From Phascolarctobacterium faecium DSM 14760 (GTDB lineage Bacteria > Bacillota > Negativicutes > Acidaminococcales > Acidaminococcaceae), in NCBI RefSeq assembly GCF_003269275.1, contig NZ_QLTS01000003.1, positions 124,001 to 188,000 of the forward strand: a stretch of 64,000 bases of DNA, given 5' to 3'. Positions within the stretch are counted from its first letter, which is position 1; every line of letters starts with the position of its first letter. A program made the translations under genes and the position numbers. The notes under the pieces were generated by a model, which was not told the origin of the DNA, made no database searches, and saw nothing but the letters and a program-made list of their open reading frames with translations. This document shows positions 7,061 to 14,210 of the stretch, one piece after another.

Positions 7061-7444
7061 TTAACCTATTTCGCGTTCTTTTTCTGTTCCGCGCACATTA
7101 ACAGGGCGGTTATTTTCATCTACCATAACTACCTTTGGTTCAAAACCTGCCGCCTCTTCAGGCGTCATCAGCGCATAAGCGATAATGATCACTGTATCAC
7201 CCACTACGACCTTGCGTGCCGCAGCGCCATTAAGGCAAATCACACCGCTGCCGCGTTCCCCTGCAATAACATAGGTTTCCAGGCGGCTGCCATTATTATT
7301 ATCAACGATCTGTACCCGCTCGCCCGGCATGATGCCGGAAAGTTCCAACAGCTCGGAATCAATGGTAATACTGCCCATATATTCTAGACAGGCTTCTGTC
7401 ACCGTAGCACGGTGGATTTTTCCATGAAACATATTCAAAAGCAT
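7061..7444 (-). CDS. panD: Aspartate 1-decarboxylase precursor
   Basis: 127 residues, the normal size. It converts L-aspartate to beta-alanine for pantothenate synthesis. The pro-enzyme self-cleaves at a Gly-Ser bond to form a pyruvoyl group. That site is visible as YMGSITID (cleavage at about G24-S25), together with the N-terminal [10 protein letters not shown] and the NGAAAR segment that are characteristic of PanD. The ATG directly abuts the panC stop codon (TAAATG), with GGAGG inside the end of panC. It is the last gene of the leftward pan operon. Confidence 0.95.
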
Positions 7445-8299
7445 TTATTCAACCTCCAAAATCACATTATCGATCAGCCGCGTAGTCCCAAAACGCACTG
7501 CTACTGCCAATAGGCACGAACCGGTAATATCACCTGCAACAGGTTTCAGATCGGGCAGCTCATAAATTTCTACATAGTCAATCTCACTCAACGGCTCTGA
7601 ACCGATCAGCTTGGCAGTTTCAGCTGCAATTCTACTGCTGTCACGCTCACCCTGCTTAAAAAGTTCTTCCGCATAACGCAGGCTTTTTGATAAAATCAAA
7701 CCGGCTGTGCGTTCTTCCTGGCTCAAATAAGTATTACGCGAACTTTTAGCCAAGCCGTCAGCCTCACGTACGATCGGCATAATCCGCAGCTGAACGTTAA
7801 AAAACAGATCTTTGACCATTCGTTTGATAACCTGTACCTGCTGCGCGTCCTTCTGCCCAAAATACGCCCTGTCAGGCTGTGCCAGATTGAACAGCTTGCT
7901 GACAACAGTAGTCACGCCACGAAAATGTATGGGACGGCTGCGGCCGCATAAAACCTTTGTAATATCACCTGTTACCTCTACCCAGGTCATATCGGCACTG
8001 GGATACATTTCTTTAGCCGCAGGGGCAAAAACGATATCGGCCCCCATTTTCCCTGCCAATATACAATCTGCTTCCAAAGTGCGCGGATAGGCTTCCAGAT
8101 CCTCCCCCGGCCCAAACTGTGTCGGATTGACAAAAACACTGACTATCACCAGCTCATTCTCTTTACGTGCGGCAGCAATGAGTGAACCATGCCCTTCATG
8201 CAGAGCCCCCATAGTCGGTACCAGACCGATGCTTTTACCCGCTGCCTTTGCTAAAGCTACCTCTTCCTGTAAATCCGCTGTCGTTTGGCAAAGTTTCAT
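7445..8299 (-). CDS. panC: Pantothenate synthetase (pantoate-beta-alanine ligase)
   Basis: 284 residues from ATG 8299. A longer reading from TTG 8317 would start inside the ribosome-site region and is rejected. It joins pantoate and beta-alanine using ATP. Nucleotidyltransferase-superfamily motifs are present: PTMGALHEGH (HxGH at about 31-34), VNPTQFGPGEDLEAYPR, GQKDAQQVQVI and SSRNTYLS (the KMSKS-like region). It lies 14 bp after panB and abuts panD, completing the beta-alanine branch and ligation within one operon. Confidence 0.95.
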   Translation of the reverse strand: MKLCQTTADLQEEVALAKAAGKSIGLVPTMGALHEGHGSLIAAARKENELVIVSVFVNPTQFGPGEDLEAYPRTLEADCILAGKMGADIVFAPAAKEMYPSADMTWVEVTGDITKVLCGRSRPIHFRGVTTVVSKLFNLAQPDRAYFGQKDAQQVQVIKRMVKDLFFNVQLRIMPIVREADGLAKSSRNTYLSQEERTAGLILSKSLRYAEELFKQGERDSSRIAAETAKLIGSEPLSEIDYVEIYELPDLKPVAGDITGSCLLAVAVRFGTTRLIDNVILEVE

Positions 8300-8313
8300 T
8301 TTAAGGCTTCCTC

Positions 8314-9153
8314 TCAATATAATTTCTCTAAAACTTCATCATCTATTTTAAACGTATGCTCCGGCGCAGGAAAACTGCGCTCCTTAACTTCCCTGATGTA
8401 TTGCTGCACTGCGCTGACAATACTTCCGTGCAGATCGCTGTATTTTTTGGCAAATTTCGGACAGAACCCGTCCGAAAATCCCAGCAGATCATTACAGACC
8501 AGGACCTGCCCATCACAGGAATTTCCGGCGCCGATACCAATAGTTGCCGCTGTTTTCAGTTCAGCAGTCACCTTTGCAGCCAAAGCAGCCGGCACACATT
8601 CCAGCACAATAGCAAAAGCTCCTGCTGCCTCTAACGCTTTAGCATCATCCAGCAATTTCTGCGCTGCGGCTACATCCTTACCCTGCACTTTAAAGCCGCC
8701 CATTTGATTGACAGACTGCGGCGTCAGACCAATGTGTCCGACCACGGGAATGCCTGCGGCAACCATTTTTTGTACCAGTTCACAGATTTCACTGCCGCCT
8801 TCCAGTTTTACTGCCGTGCAGCCAGTTTCCTTTAAAAAGCGGGCCGCATTATAAAGACCGTCAGCAATGCTGGCCTGATAACTCATAAAAGGCATGTCAG
8901 CGACAACCAGTGCCGTCCCGCAGGCGCGCATCACTGCTTTGGTGTGATGAAGCATCTCTTCCATCGTTACGGGCACAGTAGAACCGTAACCCAACATCAC
9001 ATTACCAACAGAATCACCTACCAGAATCATCTCAACACCGGCTTCATTAACATTACGGGCCATCGCAACGTCGTATGCTGTAACCATCGTTATCGGTTCA
9101 CCCTGCTGTTTCATTGCTTTGATAGTCGATGTGGTTATTGCTTTTTTATTCAT
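8314..9153 (-). CDS. panB: 3-methyl-2-oxobutanoate hydroxymethyltransferase
   Basis: 279 residues. It transfers a hydroxymethyl group from methylene-tetrahydrofolate to 2-ketoisovalerate, giving ketopantoate. Conserved features include MVTAYDVAMA near residue 25, the metal-site LVGDSVGNVMLGY (about 42-54), PFMSYQ, KLEGG, GHIGLTPQSVN (about 134-144) and GIGAGNSCDGQVLV. It follows the reductase gene after 18 bp and precedes panC by 14 bp. Ketoisovalerate comes from branched-chain amino-acid metabolism, for which uptake genes lie at 27.7-33.6 kb. Confidence 0.96.
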   Translation of the reverse strand: MNKKAITTSTIKAMKQQGEPITMVTAYDVAMARNVNEAGVEMILVGDSVGNVMLGYGSTVPVTMEEMLHHTKAVMRACGTALVVADMPFMSYQASIADGLYNAARFLKETGCTAVKLEGGSEICELVQKMVAAGIPVVGHIGLTPQSVNQMGGFKVQGKDVAAAQKLLDDAKALEAAGAFAIVLECVPAALAAKVTAELKTAATIGIGAGNSCDGQVLVCNDLLGFSDGFCPKFAKKYSDLHGSIVSAVQQYIREVKERSFPAPEHTFKIDDEVLEKLY

Positions 9154-9171: not shown

Positions 9172-10044
9172 TCAAGCTTTCAATAGTTCTTGTAAACTTT
9201 TTGCTTTCGCTTCATCGATACTGCCGTTTTCACTCGCCAGACGCACAGTCTGAAGTGCCAGTTCCCGATAAACCAGCTGCAGTTCCTCCGGCAGAATTTT
9301 CAGATGTCCTGCTACAGTGCCTGCATCACCGCGGGCAATCGGCCCGGTCAATGCCTTGCGGGCCAACGGAGTCTGATGCAGATTACTGACAGTCCCATCC
9401 AGCAGCGGCAGCAAAAACTGCAAAGCCCTTGCCTTGTCAGGTGTCCAGCGTTCAAACAGTTGCTGTGCTATCGCAGTTATTGTCACAAGATAATTAGAAC
9501 AAAAACAAGCAGCCGCATGATAGGCACTGCGCTCCGCTTCAGGAACTCTGAATGGATATGCCTGAAGCGCTTCGGCCAGATAACAGGCAGCTTGCTGTGC
9601 TTCATTATCACCATCAACAGCCATGCCGATATCTTTAAATCTGGCACTGCCTCCGGCAAAGCTCTGCAATGGATGCAGACTGCCGCAGTGAATCCCCAAG
9701 GCAGAAAGCGCCGCCAAAGGGTCCAAACCCAAAGAACCGCTGCAATGCAGGCACACCTTCTTTGACAGAATATCCCTACGCCCGGCAGTACCTACTTCCG
9801 CAGCCAGTGTTTCAGCTGCTGCCGCGATCTGCCCGTCCGGAACTGCCAGCAAAACTACATCAGCAGCCGCCAGCACCTCTGCCCCGACTGAAGTAATCTG
9901 AAAGTCACCCATGCCCGCCAGCCTCGCACAACTTTTCGGCGATCGACCCGCTTTGACGCTGACTACCTGTAAAGCAGCAGTTACTGCACAGGCTTTCAAA
10001 AAAGCACTGCCAACCTTACCCAGCCCAATGATGCCTATTTTCAT
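9172..10044 (-). CDS. Rossmann-fold DUF2520 reductase of the pan operon (probable PanG-type ketopantoate reductase)
   Basis: 290 residues from ATG 10044, which has GGGAGGG ahead of it. A longer reading from 10080 lacks a ribosome site. The N-terminal NAD(P)-binding motif is MKIGIIGLGKVGSAFLKAC, followed by AADVVLLAVPDGQIA (about 80). A helical C-terminal domain has the DUF2520 features HCGSLHPLQSFAGG and YHAAACFCSNYLV. As first gene of a panBCD operon with no PanE in view, it is positioned to reduce ketopantoate to pantoate. A family of alternative ketopantoate reductases (PanG) of this type has been described in Francisella and some Firmicutes. Domain assignment is firm; the reaction is inferred. 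Confidence 0.8.
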   Translation of the reverse strand: MKIGIIGLGKVGSAFLKACAVTAALQVVSVKAGRSPKSCARLAGMGDFQITSVGAEVLAAADVVLLAVPDGQIAAAAETLAAEVGTAGRRDILSKKVCLHCSGSLGLDPLAALSALGIHCGSLHPLQSFAGGSARFKDIGMAVDGDNEAQQAACYLAEALQAYPFRVPEAERSAYHAAACFCSNYLVTITAIAQQLFERWTPDKARALQFLLPLLDGTVSNLHQTPLARKALTGPIARGDAGTVAGHLKILPEELQLVYRELALQTVRLASENGSIDEAKAKSLQELLKA

Positions 10045-10086: not shown

Positions 10087-10119
10087 AAAATAAAAAACGC
10101 ACTCCCGCCGGGAGCGCGC
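10087..10119 (-). terminator. Intrinsic terminator within the pan operon leader
   Basis: Minus-strand 9-bp GC-rich stem CGCGCTCCC / GGGAGTGCG with a 3-nt loop, followed by TTTTTTATTTT. It lies about 43 bp before the reductase start, so it either attenuates the pan operon or ends a separate small RNA. Confidence 0.8.
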
Positions 10120-10262
10120 AAAAATACTTATAAAAAGGCCTTGTTATTGCGTCTCGTCCCGGTCATTACTGATCCAAGCGATTAATGACTGATTTTAAAT
10201 TAAGACCTGCGGCTTATGGTACAGCTCACAAAGATACTGCCCGGCCATTTATGGTCACCGCT
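10120..10262 (-). ncRNA. Candidate structured leader or small RNA upstream of the pan operon
   Basis: A transcript starting near 10256 from the promoter at 10263-10292 and ending at the terminator at 10087-10119 would be about 165 nt with no credible ORF. It contains a perfect GTCATTA/TAATGAC stem (about 10163-10190) with a 14-nt loop and several GC-rich blocks (GGCCGGG, CCGGGACGAG, AAGGCC). No TPP, FMN, SAM, THF, T-box, c-di-GMP or ZTP consensus was recognised. It may be an uncharacterised attenuator responding to a pantothenate-pathway signal, or an independent sRNA. No decision is possible from sequence alone. Confidence 0.4.
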
Positions 10263-10292
10263 ATAATAGCACAAGCACTCCGGCCTTGACAA
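10263..10292 (-). promoter_or_regulatory. Promoter of the pan leader
   Basis: Minus-strand TTGTCA (10292-10287), 18-bp spacer, TATTAT (10268-10263). Confidence 0.55.
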
Positions 10293-10459: not shown

Positions 10460-10666
10460 ATGCCCTACGTAAATATTAAAATCACCCGTGAAGGCAACGT
10501 GACACCAGAGCAAAAACAAGCCCTGATAGAAGGTGCTACCAATCTGCTGCACGACGTGCTCGGTAAAAACAAAAAGACTACTGTTGTCGTTATCGATGAA
10601 GTCGATACTGATAATTGGGGCATCGGAGGCATTTCTGTTACCGAGATCCGGAAAAGAAACAACTAA
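10460..10666 (+). CDS. 4-oxalocrotonate tautomerase family protein
   Basis: 68 residues from ATG 10460, set by AAGGAGG 7 bases upstream. After removal of Met the protein begins with Pro (MPYVNIKITREG), the catalytic general base of tautomerases. The domain continues with VTPEQKQALIEGATNLLHDVL, VVVIDEVDTDNWGIGG and a short basic tail, matching the ~62-residue single-domain 4-OT subunits that form hexamers. The substrate is unknown, as for most short 4-OT homologues. It stands alone, closed by its own terminator. Confidence 0.88.
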   Translation: MPYVNIKITREGNVTPEQKQALIEGATNLLHDVLGKNKKTTVVVIDEVDTDNWGIGGISVTEIRKRNN

Positions 10667-11048: not shown

Positions 11049-14000
11049 ATGTACAGCAACAAGAAACGTCAAGCAATACTTTTGGCGCTCCTTGCAGCGC
11101 ACTGCACCTTTTACGGAACTAACGTAATGGCTGCACCGGTACCTGTTACAGACGGCAAATACACTGCAGATGGCACAGACACTTATGATCCTATCACACA
11201 TACCGATACTATCAACAGTATCAAAGTTTCTAATGGCGCTCAGGTTTCTGTCACCGCCGGTGCAACAACCGTCAACGGTGTAAACAGCAGCGAATCCCTC
11301 ACCGCCAGCAGCGGCGGTCAGCTTACTGTTAATGGCAGTTTAAATGCCACGGTCGGTTTAGGCGATACCTATTCTACAGGAGTAGGTTATTCTGGAATTG
11401 TTGCTAACGGCAGCGGCAGTAAAATAATCCTCAGCGGTACCGATAATTCTATTACCTCCAAATCCACAAACTATAAAAATTCTGAATCAGCATTTTTTGC
11501 TTACAACAATGGTGAAATACATGTAACCGGTGACACGACAACTGTCAAAGTAAGTCAGAGCCGCATTGTAGCCGCTCAGGATGGAGCTTCTATAACTTTT
11601 TCCAATGGTAAAAGCGATGACCAGTCAGCCTTATTTAAAGCAGCAAGCAGCAGTCAGCGCTGGATGGTAGTTGCCAACGGGACAGGGAGAATCAATTTTG
11701 ACCGAGTGGAAATAGACGGAACCGGCTACAGCAATGGCAGAATGTTCTTAGCCAACGGCGATCCTGCTAAAGACATTAACGAACAGGCTAAAATAACTTT
11801 TCTTGGAGGCAGCTTCAATAGAAATGACGGTGCCGGCAGACCAGGAGCTACGGCACTGGAAACAGGCAATTTCGGGCAGATAGAAGTACTTGGCTATGAG
11901 GGCGGTGAGCTTGATATCCGTACAGGAGGCAATCACGAATCCGGTATTATCGCTATTGGCGGCGGCAGAATAGATATCAACAGTACTCAAAGCAGTAATT
12001 TCAAAACTACTATCGAAACCAGCGGGCGCAATCATCAACATGGTATTGTTATCGGTACTCTGGCTGCAACAAATCAAGCTGCAGAAAAACATCTGGGAAG
12101 TAAATACGGATCATCGGAGGTCAACCTCTATGGTACTGCAGATATAAAAGTAGATCATGAAAAAGCTTATGGCATCAAAATAGCAGGAGATGGGGCTGGA
12201 TTCAATATGTTTGCTGTCGATGGACAGCTTGAACGCAGTAAGATCCACGCCAGCTCCACAGCCGTAAAATATTCTTCAGCTCTGGGCAACTCCACTGATA
12301 AGACCGGTAATAATATGGATGCCGGTAAGCAAATAATCCATTTGGAAAATACTGATATCACTAATGACGGAGTTGCCAGCACCAGTGACAGTGACGGTGT
12401 CTATACCGGCCACCTGATACAGATAGGTTCACATGGCCAGGAAATAACCACTGACGGGCATCAACGTGCCAGCAATCCTGGCGGTACTAATTACAGTGAC
12501 ATTATCAATGTCGCGGATGCAGTCAAGGACGCTACTTTAAACTTGGTAAACAGTACAGCAACCGCTCATGATTCCAGTAATAAAGACTTGATCCATATTA
12601 CCTATGGCGGTCAAACGACAACTAATCCGGATCTTGTTGCCAGTAATATTACTGTCAATACTTCTAAAAACACTGTTCTGAACGGTGCTATTTTTACAGA
12701 TTATACAATAGACAGTACCGGTAAAAGCAGCAGGCTTGATCTTGCTCTGACGGATAACAGTACCTGGAATATGACCCAAAACGCTTCTGCAAAAAATTTA
12801 TGGCAGGGATCTGAAGCAGAAGGCAACTTTGTTACTGATCTGTCCCTGAATAATTCAGTTATTAAATTTGGTCATCTGGACTGGAACAACGATAATGAAC
12901 TTCTCGAAGCTCAAAAGGCTGAAAATTTCAAAAATTTATATGTGGCGGGAAACTACAGCGGCGACAATGGCCAGCTGCATATGAATGTCGTCTTGGGCAA
13001 AGACGATTCTGCAACTGATAAAATGATCGTCGGCGGTGACACTTCAGGCACAACCTATATCAATTTTAAAAATATCGGTGGTAGTGGCGCACAGACCGCT
13101 CAGGGTATCAAGGTCATTGAAGTTCTCGGGAATTCTGATGGTAATTTCATCAAGTCTAATCCCCTGGTCGGTGGCTTATATGAATATTCACTCGTCAAAG
13201 GCGGCAATCAAGGTACTGAAAGTGATTGGTACTTAACATCCTATGCGCCTACTACTGCCCCTGTCTATCGTCCTGAAACAGGTTCATATCTGGGAAACAT
13301 GGCCTTAGCCGGTTCTATGTTCGATCTCCGCCTTTATGATCGTGAAACGCATCTGCAGCATCAAAACAATCAGGAAGATGCCCCTAATATCTGGATCATA
13401 AACAACTATACCCGTACGAAACAGGATTTCAGCAACGATCAGATCCACGGTAATGCCAATCTATACAAACTGCGCATGGGCACTGATCTTTATAATGAAG
13501 TCAGTGATAAAGGTGAACAGCAGCTGTTCGGCATAATGGCAGCTTATGGCAATGGCAGCCAGACGACTTCAGCCAGTTTCGCCAACCGTGATTCCAAAGG
13601 TTCTGTCGATGGATTTTTATTAGGTGTCTATGGCAGCTGGTTTGAAAACGCACATGACAGAAGCGGCTGGTATGCTGATACCTGGTTCCAATATGGCTGG
13701 TTTGATAACGAAGTCAATGGTGCCGGACTAAGCAAAGAAAGCTATGATACCAACGGCTGGGGACTTTCGGCAGAAATCGGTAAATCCATAAATTACAAAG
13801 AAACAGATCGGCGTACTTATTCTTGGCAGCCTAAGCTTCAGCTTACCTATACCAAGCTTAATAATGATACGTATACTGAAAATAATGACAGTACTATCGC
13901 TTTTGGCAATGAAGCCAATCTTCAAACACGTTTGGGACTGCGTTGGTTAAGTGAACAGAATACAGCTTCGACAAAAAAAGATTCTTTCTTTGCCGAGGTA

Positions 14001-14210
14001 AACTGGCTCCACAATTCTAATAATTACACTATTTCTTCTCTTGGTGACAGTGTTTCTCAAGACGGTAACAAAAATCTTGGCGAACTTCGTCTCGGTTATG
14101 AAAAAGAATTCAATAAAGACTGGTTCATCTCTGCTGATCTCAGCGGACGTTTTGGCAGTAATTCTTACAGTTCTTTCCAAGGCATGCTGTCTTTGGAGTA
14201 TCTATTCTAA
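11049..14210 (+). CDS. Type Va autotransporter (pertactin-like passenger plus outer-membrane beta-barrel)
   Basis: 1053 residues. The N-terminal signal peptide runs to about residue 29 (basic MYSNKKRQ, a hydrophobic core, cleavage near NVMAA). The passenger (about 30-740) is rich in Gly, Ser, Thr, Asn and short beta-helix-like repeats. It ends in a pertactin-type block with IKVIEVLGNSDGNFI and the tryptophan-containing SDWYLTS. The C-terminal ~290 residues form an autotransporter barrel with alternating aromatic strands, ending in SLEYLF with the terminal Phe recognised by the outer-membrane BAM machinery. No cysteine occurs after the signal peptide. It shows that the host has an outer membrane. 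The passenger has no recognisable enzymatic motif; adhesion is likely but unproven. Confidence 0.93.
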   Translation: MYSNKKRQAILLALLAAHCTFYGTNVMAAPVPVTDGKYTADGTDTYDPITHTDTINSIKVSNGAQVSVTAGATTVNGVNSSESLTASSGGQLTVNGSLNATVGLGDTYSTGVGYSGIVANGSGSKIILSGTDNSITSKSTNYKNSESAFFAYNNGEIHVTGDTTTVKVSQSRIVAAQDGASITFSNGKSDDQSALFKAASSSQRWMVVANGTGRINFDRVEIDGTGYSNGRMFLANGDPAKDINEQAKITFLGGSFNRNDGAGRPGATALETGNFGQIEVLGYEGGELDIRTGGNHESGIIAIGGGRIDINSTQSSNFKTTIETSGRNHQHGIVIGTLAATNQAAEKHLGSKYGSSEVNLYGTADIKVDHEKAYGIKIAGDGAGFNMFAVDGQLERSKIHASSTAVKYSSALGNSTDKTGNNMDAGKQIIHLENTDITNDGVASTSDSDGVYTGHLIQIGSHGQEITTDGHQRASNPGGTNYSDIINVADAVKDATLNLVNSTATAHDSSNKDLIHITYGGQTTTNPDLVASNITVNTSKNTVLNGAIFTDYTIDSTGKSSRLDLALTDNSTWNMTQNASAKNLWQGSEAEGNFVTDLSLNNSVIKFGHLDWNNDNELLEAQKAENFKNLYVAGNYSGDNGQLHMNVVLGKDDSATDKMIVGGDTSGTTYINFKNIGGSGAQTAQGIKVIEVLGNSDGNFIKSNPLVGGLYEYSLVKGGNQGTESDWYLTSYAPTTAPVYRPETGSYLGNMALAGSMFDLRLYDRETHLQHQNNQEDAPNIWIINNYTRTKQDFSNDQIHGNANLYKLRMGTDLYNEVSDKGEQQLFGIMAAYGNGSQTTSASFANRDSKGSVDGFLLGVYGSWFENAHDRSGWYADTWFQYGWFDNEVNGAGLSKESYDTNGWGLSAEIGKSINYKETDRRTYSWQPKLQLTYTKLNNDTYTENNDSTIAFGNEANLQTRLGLRWLSEQNTASTKKDSFFAEVNWLHNSNNYTISSLGDSVSQDGNKNLGELRLGYEKEFNKDWFISADLSGRFGSNSYSSFQGMLSLEYLF

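Follow-up and report, generated by a model that had tools for sequence, protein, structure and literature searches.

A pan motif RNA in the leader of a pantothenate synthesis operon of Phascolarctobacterium faecium, probably acting as a transcription attenuator

The pan operon and its leader

The window analysed here, a 64,000-nucleotide stretch of the genome of P. faecium DSM 14760, carries on its minus strand an operon of four pantothenate synthesis genes, the first start codon of which lies at position 10044. The first gene (9172-10044) encodes a protein with a Rossmann-like domain (PF10727) and a DUF2520 domain (PF10728, 2.9e-33), probably a ketopantoate reductase of the PanG type. It is followed by panB, encoding ketopantoate hydroxymethyltransferase (8314-9153; PF02548, 1.7e-114), panC, encoding pantoate-beta-alanine ligase (7445-8302; PF02569, 1.2e-105), and panD, encoding aspartate decarboxylase (7061-7444; PF02261, 2.2e-51). 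Because the first protein matched only these two Pfam domains, and no NCBIfam model above cut-off, its PanG name and function rest on context; we take PanG to be the DUF2520 protein. PanG is cited as a new ketopantoate reductase in the accessible text of PMC4207893, and in that of PMC11487621 the name is given to another protein, YkpB of B. subtilis.

The region preceding the operon (10087-10292, minus strand) had been described in an earlier note, made from the sequence alone, as an ORF-free stretch between a promoter and a GC-rich terminator, upstream of pan genes. This description holds. No ORF of 60 or more amino acids is present inside 10094-10292. A sigma-70-type promoter is predicted at 10292-10263, with TTGTCA as -35 (10292-10287) and TATTAT as -10 box (10268-10263), separated by an 18-nt spacer; a TG precedes the -10 box, and 10 of the 12 consensus positions match. 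The predicted intrinsic terminator (10092-10119) consists of a stem-loop at 10119-10097 followed by a T run. When the 601-base stretch scanned was shuffled, promoter-like and terminator-like sites each occurred at a mean of 0.8, so that either signal in the window is weak when taken alone and the support comes from the relatives, in which both recur (see below).

On the plus strand, inspection by eye suggested a small ORF at 10463-10666 that resembles 4-oxalocrotonate tautomerase and is followed by a terminator-like stretch, and a 1053-amino-acid protein of autotransporter-like appearance at 11049-14210.

Identity, distribution and geometry of the RNA

The earlier note had recognised no known class in the leader, the short pan motif included, and had asked for an Rfam scan. 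That scan, with 4227 families, overturned this view: the sole match in the window at or above its gathering score was RF01749, the pan motif, at 10243-10150 on the minus strand (49.0 bits versus a cut-off of 36.2), and it covers model positions 1-92, the full length of the covariance model. In the alignment, two hairpins follow one another, and two A residues bulge out of each. In hairpin 1 (10218-10243), a 5-bp helix separates the outer from the inner pairs; hairpin 2 (10154-10181) has the same geometry, and its 3' strand is shared with the antiterminator proposed below. The accessible text of Weinberg 2010 (PMC2864571) describes the pan motif in the same way, as a pair of hairpins in tandem, with two bulged A per hairpin, located upstream of panB, panC or panD, and we found no difference between that RNA and the window element. 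The element is a pan motif, a class already known, to which this locus adds one more member. The genome of DSM 14760 contained no second RF01749 match at E ≤ 0.001. As far as their accessible text goes, PMC4342826 and PMC5670726 annotate pan before panB, the reconstruction in PMC6593275 names TPP, FMN, THF and B12 riboswitches without pan, and PMC3766115 and PMC11487621 gave no mention of the motif.

A search of the 61 nearest genomes placed RF01749 in 39 of them, at 48 loci; in the phylum as a whole, 152 of 398 genomes carried it. The 257 loci compared here are these 48, another 90 from the wider phylum (of more than 150 matches) and 119 pattern matches, from a scan of named genomes that gave at least 119 stretches; the pattern matches listed belong mainly to Deltaproteobacteria and kin, Chloroflexi and Bacillota, with some Nitrospina-type and other records. 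The three groups overlap, since each of the pairs L099/L207, L138/L215, L125/L202 and L114/L038 seems to represent a single site, and near-duplicates were removed for the antiterminator tests only. The pattern group also holds probable chance matches: in 26 of its 119 stretches no panB, panC, panD, DUF2520 or kinase gene lay on the leader strand of the part examined. Among the 61 nearest genomes, motif and panC occurred together in 38, neither in nine, and the motif without panC in one (G048, where it precedes a sodium:solute symporter gene). The remaining 13 have panC and no motif at the search threshold. Four of eight such genomes examined (L258, L260, L264 and L265) gave, on the strand of panC and 1.7-2.0 kb before that gene, sub-threshold matches (27.9-32.6 bits, E 0.06-0.8), which are so weak that they may be chance.

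The geometry of the hairpins was compared in the nearest and wider-phylum groups (138 loci, eight of which were dropped by the core pattern). In the other 130, a common scheme describes both hairpins: a 5-bp helix lies between outer pairs and inner pairs, the latter usually UC/GA, and each strand has one bulged A. Hairpin 1 occurs in 110 distinct versions in these 130 loci, and it is mainly the geometry, the bulged A and the inner pairs that are kept. Of its cells, 98.6% are paired, as against 38-39% when slid by one position, and each of its nine pairs shows at least three standard types, the variation between loci being compensatory. Hairpin 2 exists in 47 distinct versions, with 94.3% of the cells paired versus 41-45% when slid, and its inner U-A pair is non-standard in 12 of the 47; its tighter sequence agrees with a second role, as part of an antiterminator. 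At least eight of nine pairs plus both A residues were found for hairpin 1 in 97.7% of the 130 real loci and in 5.9% of 650 mononucleotide-shuffled segments. These pairing and bulge percentages are inflated by the choice of hairpin positions by best fit of pairing and A. Both bulged A were also present in the best fit of 70% of the shuffled segments, and the core pattern itself demands the 3' bulged A of hairpin 2; the bulge counts are therefore weak on their own, and it is the Rfam alignment that carries the bulged-A point.

The signals flanking the motif recur in the other loci. In 41 of the 48 nearest and 79 of the 90 wider-phylum loci, the 60 nt preceding pan contain an extended -10 pattern, against rates of 0.14 and 0.10, respectively, in mononucleotide shuffles, indicating that the motif usually sits near the start of the transcript. 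A terminator was detected in 213 of the 257 loci (45/48 nearest, 81/90 wider phylum and 87/119 pattern matches) by a finder that overlooks some terminators visible by eye, at a median distance of 18 nt past a 15-nt hairpin arm.

The earlier note had also singled out a perfect GTCATTA/TAATGAC stem. The stem exists (10162-10189, minus strand; arms at 10189-10183 and 10168-10162), and no other perfect 7-bp stem with a 3-25-nt loop occurs in the region. When the region was dinucleotide-shuffled 2000 times, however, 21% of the shuffles contained at least one such stem, and a 206-nt piece of the window holds 0.98 of them on average. At the corresponding stretches of 46 other loci, the number of consecutive pairs was two to five in 40, six in five and seven in one (L021), the stem of which differs in sequence. 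Moreover, the stem uses bases of hairpin 2, which belongs to the conserved structure of pan. Being at chance level and unconserved, it was rejected as a functional structure and is regarded as an incidental alternative pairing, although the enforced antiterminator fold accommodates six of its seven pairs. As a separate observation, a GTCAATA-like element lies directly 5' of hairpin 2 in L006, L016, L027, L042 and others of the nearest family; it was not seen in the other loci of that comparison, which lie outside the family of the window.

Complementarity between hairpin 2 and the terminator

A terminator placed between the pan motif and the operon is what a transcription attenuator requires, and such an attenuator would also need an antiterminator that cannot coexist with the sensor hairpin and that fits the terminator of the same leader. 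In the window, the candidate upstream strand (10148-10162) comprises CCGGGA (10162-10157) and CGCA (10151-10148), and the candidate downstream strand (10108-10120) comprises UCCCGG (10113-10108) and UGCG (10120-10117), overlapping the 5' arm and loop of the terminator. The predicted duplex between the hairpin 2 side and the terminator side has an energy of -19.0 kcal/mol.

Across loci, the 3' strand of hairpin 2, taken together with the adjoining flank, proved complementary to its own terminator beyond its fit to the terminators of other loci. In a first test with 42 distinct loci, drawn from the 45 nearest ones with a good terminator, cognate duplexes averaged -15.1 and non-cognate ones -13.0 kcal/mol, and none of 20,000 permutations was as low. 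For a larger test, 44 of the 257 loci were left out (36 without a detected terminator and eight with an atypical core), and removal of near-duplicates from the remaining 213 gave 122 loci. The cognate duplex then reached -13.84 versus -11.87 kcal/mol for non-cognate pairs (z -9.1), again a value reached by none of 20,000 permutations; shuffled 3' arms gave a mean of -10.53 kcal/mol with the cognate terminator. Two controls in the same 122 loci displayed no cognate excess, with z -0.5 for the 5' arm of hairpin 2 and z 0.04 for the linker, and shared composition or relatedness is therefore no easy explanation of the complementarity. The three groups taken separately gave z values of -4.0, -5.8 and -4.9, with 3, 0 and 1 of 20,000 permutations as low, and the effect persisted under tighter redundancy cuts (n=29, z -5.9; n=10, z -3.3).

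At least three antiterminator pairs take bases of hairpin 2 in 121 of the 122 loci. When the arm was divided, the junction of hairpin strand and flank scored best (z -6.2), followed by the hairpin strand (z -3.8) and the flank alone, which was weak (z -2.3). On the terminator side, z was -5.3 for the 5' arm and -4.1 for the loop and 3' arm combined. Since the loop and 3' arm are complementary as well and the flank contributes little, the effect is spread and not limited to one helix. Together, these results strongly indicate that hairpin 2 and the antiterminator compete. They also back the layout of a riboswitch or protein-controlled attenuator that had been suggested for this leader on its arrangement alone.

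Folding of the window leader adds a constraint. At full length it adopts the terminator form (-51.6 kcal/mol), and with the antiterminator enforced it reaches -36.7 kcal/mol, so the antiterminator, matched to its own terminator across loci, is not the lowest state in this fold and a switch would have to be kinetic. In the nascent fold up to the 5' half of the terminator, hairpin 2 is retained and the terminator half pairs with the 5' strand of hairpin 1 and the bases preceding it. The stability of the leader relative to shuffles is only modest (z -1.77; 10 of 200 shuffles fold equally well).

The following scheme is proposed. Judging from the promoter, the transcript would begin roughly a dozen nucleotides before hairpin 1. 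With hairpin 2 folded, the terminator at 10119-10097 would form and transcription would stop. With hairpin 2 open, 10162-10148 would pair with the 5' arm and loop of the terminator at 10120-10108; this pairing would block the terminator and the operon would be read. Binding of a factor to the two hairpins, in each of which two bulged A flank a short helix, would hold hairpin 2 in its folded form and reduce expression. As hairpin 2 competes with the antiterminator, its stabilisation should turn the operon off. In five loci without a detected terminator (L013, L122, L127, L145 and L146), hairpin 2 ends, on its 3' side, no more than about 10 nt from the called start codon; to judge from this arrangement, they would represent a second platform, on which folded hairpin 2 would again mean off. 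It is from this sign, common to both platforms, that we infer the direction in which the bound state is the off state.

Comparison of the loci shows the motif, the flanking predicted promoter and terminator, and a locus-specific antiterminator complementarity that overlaps hairpin 2. We put the probability that the window element is a pan motif in the leader of the DUF2520-panB-panC-panD operon and acts as a transcription attenuator at about 0.85, a joint figure for identity and attenuation that leaves signal and factor outside it.

Operons headed by pan, candidate signal and factor

Gene labels in the other loci were assigned by BLASTP against a few references, some of them drawn from the same loci, and representatives alone were checked with Pfam and NCBIfam. 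In all 48 nearest loci a labelled first gene lies within 450 nt: a DUF2520 gene in 23, panC in 10, a PanS-like transporter gene of the bile-acid:sodium-symporter family in six, panB in five, and in one each panD, an ECF S component gene, a sodium:solute symporter gene and a DUF997 gene before a panF. In the wider phylum, the first gene was labelled in 76 of 90 loci; a pan gene or kinase gene is present on the leader strand in 86 of the 90 and an ECF S component gene in three more, leaving L201 with none.

Several of these operons, according to the BLASTP labels, extend to transport and phosphorylation. The motif is followed by bioY, an ECF S component gene and a type III pantothenate kinase gene in L202, L208 and L243, by birA, an ECF S component gene and a type III kinase gene in L249, and by panC, panD and birA, with a type III kinase gene further on, in L032 and L047. 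An OPT-family transporter gene and then a type II kinase gene come after pan in L203, L207 and L215 (the latter two resemble L099 and L138). Representatives confirmed the type II kinase (NF009842, 278.8 bits, cut-off 234), the type III kinase (NF009847, 418.5 bits, cut-off 381), the BioY and BirA domains and the PanF of L038 (TIGR02119, 464.8, cut-off 328.05). The transporter names are looser. The S components matched ECF_trnsprt and obtained no NCBIfam substrate name above cut-off, pantothenate as their substrate being a guess; the PanS-like protein scored 254.6 against a cut-off of 400 and the symporter of L024 fell below the PanF cut-off, so both names are tentative. The OPT protein of L203 matched PF03169 (1.5e-49), with both NCBIfam OPT models below cut-off, and the OPT transporters of L203, L207 and L215 are candidate importers of a CoA precursor.

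The genes in operons behind pan serve the synthesis and probable uptake of pantothenate and include type II or III kinases, which makes CoA or a late precursor the likely candidate for the signal. Control over synthesis, uptake and phosphorylation alike fits a signal at or beyond phosphopantothenate, of which CoA is the natural end product. The biotin genes in some pan operons (birA in 13 and bioY in four of the 138 nearest and wider-phylum loci) speak against a pure CoA reading, which they complicate. The birA-like genes lie on the leader strand in L031, L032, L047, L063, L200, L205, L206, L218, L229, L240, L249, L251 and L254.

The earlier note had considered that the RNA might equally be independent, that is, a small RNA ending at the terminator. 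Enclosure between a promoter and a terminator would suit such an RNA; the genes that follow argue against it, and we consider it very improbable. All 48 nearest loci precede pathway or transporter genes. Four of the reference transporters came from the same loci, and the independent count, with the four proteins of the window as references, is therefore 44 of 48 with a panB, panC, panD or DUF2520 gene on the leader strand, the other four being transporter loci. Complementarity between hairpin 2 and the terminator is, in addition, a requirement of an attenuator.

If the leader is an attenuator, the hairpins could be bound by a protein or by a metabolite, and we infer a dimeric protein as the more likely factor. 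Control by a CoA-status sensor, either a dedicated or a moonlighting protein, comparable to PyrR with its own signal, seems the somewhat favoured reading: within each hairpin, 5 bp followed by a bulged A on either strand make a pseudo-twofold arrangement that would suit a dimer. It has brought forward no candidate protein; CoaX, the type III kinase, is the one protein whose distribution was compared, and with its presence in 60 of the 61 relatives, with or without the motif, it does not discriminate, making presence and absence uninformative for a role in trans. That the hairpins bind CoA or a precursor directly, making the same attenuator a true riboswitch, appears rather unlikely. The gene content does point to the end product of the pathway, and CoA is listed among the cofactors without a known riboswitch, though one is expected, in the accessible text of Breaker 2022 (PMC9971707). 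Few unpaired nucleotides are fixed, however, and hairpin 1 tolerates its many versions. The available part of Weinberg 2010 (PMC2864571), which marks the riboswitch column for pan with '?', reads the simple tandem form as suggesting the site of a dimeric protein.

Both kinds of control have well-known counterparts. In the PyrR- and TRAP-controlled attenuators of Bacillus, the bound upstream RNA element keeps the antiterminator from forming, so that the terminator can form, as proposed here, and PyrR senses pyrimidine nucleotides; their RNA is unrelated to pan, for which the literature searched contained no binding protein. TPP and FMN riboswitches, of the class that responds to vitamins and cofactors, resemble pan in that one leader RNA governs the synthesis and uptake genes of one vitamin. 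Unlike them, pan has no large conserved binding core, and a ligand was not found in the accessible text of the literature searched.

The pan class was described in 2010, and the interest lies in how the class works more than in this locus. A locus-specific antiterminator competing with hairpin 2 gives the class a concrete two-state assay, and the kinases and transporters in the regulon narrow the candidate signals from pantoate or beta-alanine to CoA or late precursors. In the accessible text of the literature found, the 2010 supplement lying outside the search, no mechanism, ligand or wider regulon is given for pan; the antiterminator test and the wider regulon are the additions made here, and that supplement may already note the antiterminator.

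A few gene contexts stand apart. The motif is followed by a gene for an S58-family peptidase and then pan genes in L081, L150, L162 and L166 (Pfam was run on L081 only). S58-family peptidases are linked to beta-aminopeptidases, and those of the four loci are possibly a source of beta-alanine. ABC-type ATPase genes come after the motif in the pattern loci L085, L111 and L164, and in L240 an amidohydrolase gene comes first, then birA and an ECF S component gene. In L096 and L104, both in Deltaproteobacteria-type records, a pan-like hairpin precedes the gene for a SIS-domain protein.
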